A stretch of 38,320 nt of DNA, taken from positions 1-38,320 of the forward strand of contig JAFSKV010000086.1 in NCBI GenBank assembly GCA_017448795.1. The letters are read 5' to 3'. The notes beneath the pieces were generated by a model. The model searched no databases. It was not told the origin of the DNA and saw nothing but the letters and a program-made list of their open reading frames with translations. The stretch comes from Synergistaceae bacterium (GTDB lineage Bacteria > Synergistota > Synergistia > Synergistales > Aminobacteriaceae). Position numbers and translations under genes: made by a program. Below are positions 17,995 to 21,943 of this stretch, one piece after another. Each line of letters opens with the position of its first letter. Within the stretch, counting starts at the first letter, position 1.

Positions 17995-18837
17995 TTATTG
18001 TTCAAGCGCGTGAACAAAGCACGTTACCGCCAGCAAATCCCCCGCTCCTCCCGGAGAAATCCACCGCCCTATATATTCCCGGTCAAGCCCCGCAATATCC
18101 TCAAGCCCGAAGCCACGACTCACCATTTCCCCCGCAGTGTTCATGACCTCCTGAGCTGTGGCCATGTCATGCCGGGATATTATGTTCGTGTCCTGAGCGT
18201 GTGCCATGATGTGAACCAGCGTCATAGCCAGCGCGTCATTCATGCTCATTCCCTCCGCAAGGTACTCCCTCAGCGCAGGCAACGCCCTCAGTCTCACACA
18301 GGGATACCCCGCCTCAGCCTCGCCGCGAATCCCCGTTATACCGTGAGTGATGTAGACACGTTCCCCCTTCGTCATCATGGCCGGACTCTTCTCCCTCACG
18401 CCCGCAAAATCACGCTCAACGATCCCAGCACACATTTCACCCGCAAGAGTCATCGTCCCGTCAGCCGTAACATCATGCCCGGCTCCCGCGAGATACCCCG
18501 CGCATGAAGCCAGAAGTCCCAGCGAGAATATTTCGCCCTTGTGCGTGTTTATGCCCCCGGTTGCCGCAAACATTCTGTGTTCTGCCTCGACTCCAATTCT
18601 GCGGACTGACGGGAAAACTTCAGCAGGAGGAATCCCCAAGACTCCCCCCGCAAAGCCTTCCTGCGAAAATTCAGCGAAACTTTCAGCTAGACTCGCCGCG
18701 CTCCTCATGAACGTGAAGAAGTCCATATCCTTGTGAGCTCCTGAGTTGCTACGGTCGACTAGTCCGGGCTTGGGAGTGGCCGACACCTCAAGCAGCATCG
18801 CCTCAAGCACCAGCCTCCCGATCTCACGGCTATTCAT
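17995..18837 (-). CDS. citG: triphosphoribosyl-dephospho-CoA synthase (CitG family)
   Basis: About 280 residues from ATG 18837; two more in-frame ATGs within 20 nt upstream make the exact start uncertain. CitG joins ATP and dephospho-CoA to make the precursor of the acyl-carrier prosthetic group of citrate lyase, or of malonate decarboxylase in MdcB. Family marks are the N-terminal EVSATPKPGLVDRSNSGAHKDMD, the GGINTHKGEIFSLG motif, and a C-terminal HAQDTNI followed by SPGGAGDLLA. It overlaps the end of the RND permease gene by 8 nt, so it is translationally coupled to it, an odd pairing. No citrate lyase or malonate decarboxylase subunit lies in the window. A related CitG-like role in another pathway remains possible. 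Confidence 0.85.
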   Translation of the reverse strand: MNSREIGRLVLEAMLLEVSATPKPGLVDRSNSGAHKDMDFFTFMRSAASLAESFAEFSQEGFAGGVLGIPPAEVFPSVRRIGVEAEHRMFAATGGINTHKGEIFSLGLLASCAGYLAGAGHDVTADGTMTLAGEMCAGIVERDFAGVREKSPAMMTKGERVYITHGITGIRGEAEAGYPCVRLRALPALREYLAEGMSMNDALAMTLVHIMAHAQDTNIISRHDMATAQEVMNTAGEMVSRGFGLEDIAGLDREYIGRWISPGGAGDLLAVTCFVHALEQ

Positions 18838-21800
18838 CGTCATCATCGTATGCTTCACCGTCTTCGTCTTTCTCGCCGTATTCCCTGCCTCTCACCCTCG
18901 CCCAGAAGAGCCGGACTCTCCACACGAGCTTGTACGCCGCGGGGATTGACAGCATGGCCAGCATTCCGCCCGCGATCAGCCCGCCAATCGCAACGACAGC
19001 AATAGGCCGCTTCATCTCAGAGCCTCTTCCGGTCGACAGCAAAGGCACAAGCGAGACTATCGACGTAACAACCGCCATCAGCAATGACTTGAAGCGAACA
19101 TGACACGCCTCTTCTACAGCCTCGTAAGGATGAGTGCCCTTCAGGCGCAGGACTTCCGCGTAGTCAACGACGACAATCGCGTTGTTCACGACCATTCCCA
19201 CGAGCATTATCATTCCGATTATGGCGAATATTGAGATGTTGACTTCTGACAGGAGCATTGCCGGAACGACTCCGATTGCCGCCATCGGAACAGTAGCTAG
19301 GATGACTATGCTGTACGTCCACGACTCAAGTATCGCCGCGACAATCAAGTATGTAACTACAATTGCGATAATCAGAGTCCGCAGAAGCTCCGTGAAGTTC
19401 TCGGCCATGTCCTCCTGTTCGCCGCCGAAATTGATGCTGACACCTTCAGGGAGAGTCAGGCTGTCAACAACCTCACGCATCCTCGCGTTGCCCTCGCCTG
19501 ACGTGATGTATCTCACCCGCCCGGTAACAACAACAGCCCTCTCGCGCTCAACCCTGCGAATCTCAGTAGGGCCGTCGCTCCATGAAATGTCAGCCATCTC
19601 ATCAAGCGGAACAAGACCGTAGCCCGTCATTATCGGGAGTTCGTGGGCATTGAAGATGTCGCTGGCTTTCTCGCGGGCAATACGTGCTTTTATGTCGTAC
19701 TCGTAGCCTCCCTGCCGGAATTTCCCGGAGTCCCTCCCTATAAGGTAGCCCCTCACGATTCCCGCAAGGTCCGAGATATTTATCCCCAACGGTGCGAGCC
19801 TCCAGCGGATTGGCGTGATTCTCAGCTCAGGCTTGCCCATCTCCATCTCTATTGTGAGGTCGCGGATTCCCGGAATGACTCTGCCCTTTGCGCGGATTTC
19901 CTCAGCGATTCCGTAAAGCTGGTTCAAGTCCTGACCCTTTATCTGAATCTCAATCGGGTTGCCGAAGCCTGAACGCGTGGCGGCTATTGAGATCTGCACT
20001 CCCGGAAGATTGCTCAGGTACGGGCGGATTCTGTCGGCCAATACTTGGGTTGACGGCCTGCCGGGGTCATCGTTCATGTACAGGGCTATGCTTGCCTCGC
20101 TGATTGAGTTTGACCGCATGGAGCCTGCCACTGTTGATACCACGTTCTTGATGTATTTGCGCTCAGGAAGTTTGTTGATGTAGTCCTCTACGTGGTAGAT
20201 GAGATCGGCTGTCCTGTGGATGGATGAATTGTTGTCGAGGGTGAGCGTGATTCTGACCGTCCCGTCATCCATCGAGGGCGTGAACTCAGTGCCGATGAAG
20301 CCGCCGAGCTTGAGTGAGCCGTAAGTGGCAAGCACCGTGAATATCACCGTCAGCATCGGGAATCTCATGGCCACGTGAAGAATGATGAAGAACATATCCC
20401 GGAAGCCGTCAAATATCCAGTTCCACCAGCCTGTGAGAATTTTCCCGATTAACGGAATCTCGTTGTCATGGCCGGTCTTCTTGATTCTCGCCGCCAAGCA
20501 CGGAGTAACCGCCATAGTTACCCACAGTGAGAAGCATGTAGCATACACTATTGTTACGGCATAAGGCTTGAGGAACTGCCCCGCTATCGTCGACATCAGT
20601 GCTACAGGCATGAACACCCCCAAGTTGGTCAACACTCCCGCAAGCACCGACATCGAGATTTCAACCGTGCCTTCTTCCGCCGCCTCAAACGCTCCGTAGC
20701 CCATATCACGGAAACGGTAGATGTTCTGTATGATGAGTATCGCGTTCATGACCAGCGTACCCATTGAGAGGGCGAGTCCGAGAGTGCTCATCAGGTTGAG
20801 GGTGTAGCCGTGAATCTGGAGGGGGACGAACGTAGCCGCAAACGCAACAGGCATCGAGAACGCAACAATGAACGTTGCCCCGAAGCGTCCCAAGAACAGG
20901 TATATCACGAGTGCAGTCAACGCTATACCGATTGCTGTATCACGGATGATGTTCTTGACCGCCGACTCGACAAATCCCGTGTCATCATAGGTGTACTCGT
21001 ACGTGAAATCCGGGTATTCCCTCATCGTCCGCTCCATGAGACGCTTTATCTGCCTTCCTGCCTCCACAACGTCAGCGTTCGAGCGCGGGCTAATCCTGAG
21101 CTGTACAACAGGGTGGCCGTCTGCGCGCGCCATGCTCCGCTGGTCTTCCTCCCCGTCAACAACCTCACCTAACATTGAGAGTCTCACGGGCTGGCCGTTG
21201 GGCGTGGGAATGAGGATGTCTTCGAGCTGCTCCACCTCGTTGAACTCGCCCATGAGACGCAGCGACACTTCGTCCTTCCTCTGCGTAACGTAGCCTGACG
21301 GTGTGGTCTGGTTGTTCGCGGCCACAACGTTGCACACCTGCATGTAGCTTATCCCGTAATCACTCAGTGCCGCCGGGTCAAGGTTGATGTGAATCTCGCG
21401 GTCGCGCCCCCCCGTAACGTCAACGCGCCCCACTCCTTGGACACGCGCAACAACGGGCTGTATCCTGTCCTCGATCATCTTCTTTGCGGTCTTCTCCGGC
21501 ATTGATGAGGTGAACGAGACTATCAGGAAGGGCTGTGCTGAGATGTCGAACTTGCTGGATACCGGCTCGTCAGCGTCATCCGGGAGATCCGGGACTTTGG
21601 CCTTGACCTTGTTGTTCACGTCTACAAGCGCGAGGTCAGGATTCGTTCCGGGATTCATTTCGACGGCGACCATCGATATGCCTTCGATTGAGTATGTCGT
21701 TATGGACTTGAGATTTTCGAGGTCGGCTAATGCGTCTTCGAGTGGCTTGCTGATGAGCTGTTCGATTTCGTTCGGGCCTGCTCCTGTGTAGGTTGTGCGG

Positions 21801-21943
21801 ACGAGGCAGAAGGGAAGCTCAACATCGGGGTAAAGCGTAACTCCGAGCGTGAAGTAGCTTGAGATGCCGAGCAGTATCCAGATAACAACAGAACACCCGG
21901 TGAAGACCGGGTGCGTGATGCAGAACTTTATGAATCCTCTCAT
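18830..21943 (-). CDS. RND-family efflux permease (HAE1-like) lacking the TM4 Asp pair
   Basis: 1037 residues, the normal length for an inner-membrane RND pump. It has TM1 near the N-terminus, two large periplasmic porter regions (about 40-335 and 560-860), and the TM4-6 and TM10-12 bundles. TM4 reads LALSMGTLVMNAILIIQNIYR where AcrB-type pumps have [13 protein letters not shown]: the two proton-relay aspartates (AcrB D407, D408) are Met and Asn. TM10 reads GMVVNNAIVVVDYAEV, with Asn in place of AcrB K940, as is common in many non-enteric RND pumps. The periplasmic and docking regions look intact. The C-terminus is highly acidic (EDGEAYDDDDE). The adaptor gene ends 6 nt upstream and citG overlaps its end. 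No TolC-like gene is nearby. It is a pump with altered energising, or one using other acidic residues. Confidence 0.9.
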   Translation of the reverse strand: MRGFIKFCITHPVFTGCSVVIWILLGISSYFTLGVTLYPDVELPFCLVRTTYTGAGPNEIEQLISKPLEDALADLENLKSITTYSIEGISMVAVEMNPGTNPDLALVDVNNKVKAKVPDLPDDADEPVSSKFDISAQPFLIVSFTSSMPEKTAKKMIEDRIQPVVARVQGVGRVDVTGGRDREIHINLDPAALSDYGISYMQVCNVVAANNQTTPSGYVTQRKDEVSLRLMGEFNEVEQLEDILIPTPNGQPVRLSMLGEVVDGEEDQRSMARADGHPVVQLRISPRSNADVVEAGRQIKRLMERTMREYPDFTYEYTYDDTGFVESAVKNIIRDTAIGIALTALVIYLFLGRFGATFIVAFSMPVAFAATFVPLQIHGYTLNLMSTLGLALSMGTLVMNAILIIQNIYRFRDMGYGAFEAAEEGTVEISMSVLAGVLTNLGVFMPVALMSTIAGQFLKPYAVTIVYATCFSLWVTMAVTPCLAARIKKTGHDNEIPLIGKILTGWWNWIFDGFRDMFFIILHVAMRFPMLTVIFTVLATYGSLKLGGFIGTEFTPSMDDGTVRITLTLDNNSSIHRTADLIYHVEDYINKLPERKYIKNVVSTVAGSMRSNSISEASIALYMNDDPGRPSTQVLADRIRPYLSNLPGVQISIAATRSGFGNPIEIQIKGQDLNQLYGIAEEIRAKGRVIPGIRDLTIEMEMGKPELRITPIRWRLAPLGINISDLAGIVRGYLIGRDSGKFRQGGYEYDIKARIAREKASDIFNAHELPIMTGYGLVPLDEMADISWSDGPTEIRRVERERAVVVTGRVRYITSGEGNARMREVVDSLTLPEGVSINFGGEQEDMAENFTELLRTLIIAIVVTYLIVAAILESWTYSIVILATVPMAAIGVVPAMLLSEVNISIFAIIGMIMLVGMVVNNAIVVVDYAEVLRLKGTHPYEAVEEACHVRFKSLLMAVVTSIVSLVPLLSTGRGSEMKRPIAVVAIGGLIAGGMLAMLSIPAAYKLVWRVRLFWARVRGREYGEKDEDGEAYDDDDE

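Follow-up and report, generated by a model that had tools for sequence, protein, structure and literature searches.

The minus-strand gene at 18830-21943 of the analysed window (a stretch of 38,320 nucleotides from a Synergistaceae bacterium, contig JAFSKV010000086.1) encodes an RND permease that is an HAE-1 exporter by fold and family, yet fails as an AcrB-type proton antiporter by its relay residues. The gene is a member of an old clade of RND pumps that lost the central aspartate of transmembrane helix 4 (TM4), D407 in AcrB numbering. We consider it highly probable that the relay has been lost and that the pump is kept under selection; the absence of the relay, its inheritance and the purifying selection acting on the gene are established at the level of sequence. 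D407 lies in the GX3DX6E motif of TM4; PMC2891726 and PMC5719797, in which this motif was defined, treat the residue as indispensable for coupling and as conserved among HAE-1 and heavy-metal RND pumps alike. The G403-X3-D407-X6-E414 motif was found in all 254 Burkholderia pumps (PMC2891726). Transport by AcrB and MexB was abolished by D407N and by D408N, and D408 is the less conserved of the two residues (PMC5719797). Among open-licence papers, no published description of a D407-less HAE-1 clade was found.

The relay positions were assigned by alignment, with E. coli MG1655 AcrB, MdtB, MdtC and CusA as the reference pumps for numbering. TM4 of the focal pump (382-LNLMSTLGLALSMGTLVMNAILIIQNI-408; 20720-20800, minus strand, as for all permease positions below) aligned with AcrB TM4 without gaps and contained no Asp or Glu. 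The D407-D408 pair corresponded to M399-N400 (20744-20749), as the sequence-only reading had claimed, and the DNA pattern for LVMNAI matched exactly at 20736-20755. Within the GX3DX6E motif, G395 (G403) was kept and both M399 (D407) and Q406 (E414; 20726-20728) departed from it, nor was an aspartate found one turn away in TM4. In TM10 (GMVVNNAIVVVDY), K940 was replaced by N920 and N941 was conserved as N921 (19181-19186), while T978 and S979 of TM11 were replaced by A957 and V958 (19070-19075); the TM10/TM11 core was free of Asp and Glu. The equivalents of R971 (R950, 19094-19096), S481, N941 and G403 were retained, and the sole acid among the scanned TM core segments was that of R334-D335 in TM2, near the periplasmic end (20939-20944). 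In AcrB, K940 bridges D407 and D408, T978 bonds D407, and R971 adjoins E414/N415 (PMC4359379). Because no charged partner of that core remains except R971, the alignment indicates that the AcrB proton relay cannot operate in the focal pump. The core presents Met for Asp, Ala for Thr, and Val or Ile for Asp, instead of polar ligands, and it looks repacked.

The aligned set comprised 146 pumps, 58 without and 88 with D407 (8 of the 88 nested inside the D407-less clade); it was seeded from the focal protein and a peptide pattern, and its fractions are not population frequencies. D407 was present in all 80 sampled pumps outside the D407-less clade. Judged from this alignment, the anomaly is the loss of D407 plus E414 (E414 to Gln), whereas D408 or K940 is often missing in other pumps as well. 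The earlier claim that Asn-Asn replaces the lysine region of TM10 was accurate with respect to N920 at the K940 position, but there is nothing odd in it, as Asn at 940 occurred in 48 of the 59 pumps that lie outside the clade and carry D407 without D408. The AcrB periplasmic entry acids E346 and D924 were considered as additional losses and dropped, since they were not conserved in ordinary pumps either. A correlated loss of D407 and T978 was seen in raw counts, and it amounted to only four independent pairs on the tree, with which significance is unreachable.

Sequencing error or chance is excluded for M399, because all genus orthologs covering the site share it and its codon was ATG in all 41 orthologs amid synonymous variation at neighbouring codons. 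The amino acids at codons 399, 400 and 406 were constant in the 41 orthologs (Gln at 406 in 41/41). TM4 was the most conserved segment of the permease; the invariant fraction in these orthologs was 93% for TM4, 78% for TM10 and 44% for the whole protein. The dN/dS values were 0.03-0.07 against close orthologs and rose to 0.12 against more distant ones, with synonymous sites near or at saturation. These data bear out the proposal that the gene is retained although the usual relay is missing, the relay residues being absent in all genus orthologs, and they revealed no general decay in close relatives. Two local irregularities were recorded. L022 (genome G015) and L046 lacked about 11 residues in the segment joining TM10 to TM11, the R971 equivalent among them, with the frame still open; in L026 (genome G005) and L044 the pump ORF was split near residues 847-863, by a frameshift or an assembly error.

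By its named relatives, many of which carry the label Fretibacterium, the focal DNA falls among rumen Synergistaceae. Of 38 sampled genomes of the focal Fretibacterium-like genus, 36 carried the pump, and LVMN occupied the TM4 site in every focal-genus locus covering it. A degenerate DNA pattern for LVMNAI was found in 34 of 61 family genomes; the reversed control pattern gave no match. One genome of the genus (G018) carried two such pumps (L025 and G018:C294:7091-10156), 82% and 73% identical to the focal protein. Synergistota relatives with about 39-56% identity had mostly LVNN, with LVDN in L179/L180 and LVND in L029. The last of these (genome G038; TM4 LVNDAILV) kept D408 and lost D407, and was the sole such case in the sample. 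Among the distant members, LVNN was found in Sedimentisphaerales, LVTN in Krumholzibacteriota and others, LVMN in Spirochaetia, LVAN and LISG in Bacillota MAGs, LIAN in Omnitrophota and LISN in Elusimicrobia. Met at 407 had separate origins in Synergistaceae and Spirochaetia; in the 120 Spirochaetota genomes sampled, the best-scoring readable pumps other than the query's own kept D407.

The D407-less pumps formed one clade with a support of 99 both in the FastTree tree (146 rows) and in the IQ-TREE LG+C20 PMSF tree (76 rows), the relay columns having been left out of both. The question of whether the change is common to a clade was answered positively. This clade spanned at least six phyla, and its position 407 was N, M, T, A or S, except in three nested Asp lineages. 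Four changes at 407 suffice on the tree, a count which by itself cannot separate gain from loss and which would most simply correspond to a single loss followed by three nested returns of Asp.

An acid was found in another core helix of many relatives. Of the 58 D407-less rows, 19 had Asp at AcrB position 979 (TM11, beside T978), and none of the 88 rows with D407 did, so that Asp979 and D407 never occurred together in one pump. Three changes on the tree account for its distribution, a number that likewise cannot tell gain from loss and is consistent with one gain in Synergistota followed by two losses. Both lineages losing Asp979 include a re-appearance of D407 (L186-L189/L192 and L179/L180), and in the focal Met-Asn lineage and the L177-type group Asp979 was lost with D407 absent as well. 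This distribution suggests, from few events, that an acid in the core is generally favoured and may sit in TM4 or TM11, the focal lineage being without either; in many Synergistota relatives the acid may have moved from 407 to 979. A search for a membrane acid gained in the focal lineage relative to its sister pumps found none. The suggestion that the focal pump uses another acidic residue was therefore not borne out, though many relatives carry the TM11 Asp.

The remainder of the permease was intact, as had been proposed from the sequence. The ORF was open throughout (1037 amino acids, no internal stops) and matched PF00873 with 695.1 bits (cut-off 28), covering profile positions 1-1020 of 1021. 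The AF2 model (mean pLDDT 84) showed the AcrB fold, with its 12 TM helices and its pair of large periplasmic loops, and superposed on AcrD, AcrB, MdtF and MdtB with a TM-score of about 0.90 and Z of about 52. The solved structures nearest by sequence were MdtB, BpeF and CmeB; among the named NCBIfam RND permease subfamilies no cut-off was reached, the top one being RND_permease_2 (610 bits versus 1250). Equally intact was the periplasmic adaptor, or membrane fusion protein, encoded at 21950-23059 on the minus strand (369 amino acids, P0002; TIGR01730 RND_mfp, 173 bits, above the cut-off of 94.9), and its gene preceded that of the pump in those orthologs whose flanking sequence reached far enough. 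The claim of an intact promoter was not supported, as two weak sigma-70-like matches were found against 0.7 expected by chance. Two TolC-family (OEP) proteins were encoded in the focal genome away from the pump locus, on contigs C57 and C83. In relatives, a TetR gene adjoined the adaptor at four loci (L050, L051, L052 and L074) and a TolC (OEP) gene at L055, which is the usual layout of inducible tripartite exporters. The permease belongs to a genuine, selected HAE-1-type tripartite exporter made up of the adaptor, an RND trimer and, from a separate locus, a TolC-like channel. A defence-system role for the pump and adaptor was rejected, neither having a PADLOC match.

The gene order on the minus strand was hydE, a 357-base gap, adaptor, pump and citG. 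The citG-like gene, 3' of the pump (17995-18837, minus strand), scored 269.4 bits against TIGR03125, slightly below the cut-off of 272.3. Its likely ATG overlaps the pump stop codon (ATGAATAG, 18837-18830), and through this overlap citG is predicted to be translationally coupled to the pump at the focal locus. The odd coupling to citG pointed out earlier is hence real at this locus, but it adds nothing to the anomaly, being confined to close orthologs: citG lay 3' of the pump at 47 of 52 loci with at least 82% identity and at none of 25 loci with 35-82%. Because the adjacency is restricted to close loci and the genome has its three citF genes at other sites, citG is a recent, genus-level neighbour and probably not part of the pump, and on the same grounds its candidacy as a functional partner was rejected. 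The three citF (citrate lyase alpha) genes of the 2.5-Mb focal genome (G000) were located on contigs C7, C3 and C44, none of them the citG contig. Elsewhere in the window, the minus strand encoded a 1098-amino-acid protein with putative Ig (He_PIG) repeats and a C-type lectin domain (4392-7688) and a serine dehydratase alpha-chain ORF (12262-13737) overlapping the ORF of a neighbouring GGDEF-domain protein (13616-14848).

The leading mechanism we infer, held tentatively and at somewhat less than an even chance, is uncoupled export driven by the substrate gradient. D407 was lost in the old RND clade, and the ion-binding core of the focal lineage was then fully neutralised through D407 to Met, D408 to Asn, K940 to Asn, T978 to Ala and the change of an intermediate TM11 Asp979 to Val or Ile, with E414 replaced by Gln in most members. 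The trimer would still alternate among the access, binding and extrusion states, but the contacts between its transmembrane repeats would be neutral, and binding and release of the substrate would drive the cycle. Net export would then run along the substrate gradient, as facilitated export, without proton antiport, of a compound that the cell makes itself or that accumulates in the membrane. Counted in favour were the genus-wide absence of the relay, the absence of a TM4, TM10 or TM11 acid and of any gained acid, the repacked core, the clade support of 99, purifying selection with extreme TM4 conservation, the intact HAE-1 fold, the TetR/TolC neighbours in relatives and the abolition of AcrB and MexB transport by D407N and D408N (PMC5719797). 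On the other hand, TetR linkage and strong conservation of the pumps point to active export instead of a passive one, the Asp979 of many relatives and the re-appearing Asp407 suggest that a core acid is useful, and the equivalents of R971, S481, N941 and G403 have been retained.

Nearly as likely is that ions continue to drive the pump via a non-canonical site within the same protein, such as R334-D335 in TM2, E428/D927 at the cytoplasmic end, or a neutral Na+ site formed by N400, N920, N921 and S472. D335 was Asp in 18 of 18 focal-type pumps; however, it was Asn in 12 of 14 far D407-less pumps and was common also to relatives with the TM11 acid, and the R334-D335 pair was rejected as the replacement acid because it does not track the loss of D407. 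The Asn/Ser cluster is conserved clade-wide, yet it was equally common in D407 pumps, just as E428 and D927 were also found in ordinary pumps. That TM4 is the top-conserved segment and that sister pumps place an acid in TM11 would fit an ion site, whereas the lack of a gained membrane acid and the removal of a ligand by Met at 407 argue against it. A less likely explanation, which we regard as improbable, is that a different protein supplies energy to the relay-less protomer, as an RND paralog that keeps its relay could do in a mixed trimer. MdtBC is a known mixed RND pump, and two further RND pumps in the focal genome keep D407 and K940; both, however, are 21-23% identical to the focal pump and have their own adaptor genes. 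An adjacent partner was rejected, as no second RND gene adjoins the D407-less pumps and the sole two-RND locus, L110, keeps D407. Decay of the gene or its retirement from transport is very improbable and already largely refuted, since the split ORF in one genome (L026/L044) and the deletion of the R971 equivalent in another (L022/L046) are set against the dN/dS of 0.03-0.07, the 93% invariance of TM4, the pump's occurrence in 36 of 38 genus genomes and the retained adaptor.

For the group as a whole, the chances appear about equal for and against the broader proposition that a multi-phylum HAE-1 clade lost the TM4 Asp and that some of its lineages, including the focal genus, export with no ionisable core residue in TM4, TM10 or TM11, either uncoupled from ions or via a novel site. 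If this is true, some RND exporters would run uncoupled from ions or would couple through a site that has no known counterpart in the superfamily. A natural clade maintained by selection in the absence of D407 would show that the RND scaffold can work usefully without the known relay. One family would also offer matched natural comparisons (acid at 407, acid at 979, no core acid) as tests of ion drive.

The focal pump resembles the HAE-1 pumps AcrB, AcrD, MdtB and MdtF in its full-length fold, its adaptor and the R971, S481, N941 and G403 equivalents; it differs from them in its 20-24% identity, in the absence of D407, D408, K940 and T978, and in Gln at the E414 position. Borrelia BesB is, like the focal pump, an RND pump of a host-associated non-Proteobacteria bacterium (PMC2279261), but it was rejected as a precedent, as the Borrelia-like loci L256/L257 keep D407 (GMLVDCSIVVIENI). 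The D407-only pumps with LVDN in TM4 and NN in TM10 (e.g., Clostridia L073 and L076; 30-32% identity) share the neutral residues at 408 and 940 and, unlike the focal pump, keep D407, T978 and either E414 or Asp in its place. The Synergistota LVNN pumps (e.g., L059 of strain L-13 and L055 of Thermovirga) belong to the focal clade, are 39-43% identical to the focal pump and similarly lack D407, D408 and K940; in contrast to it, they keep E414 and carry Asp at AcrB position 979 in TM11.
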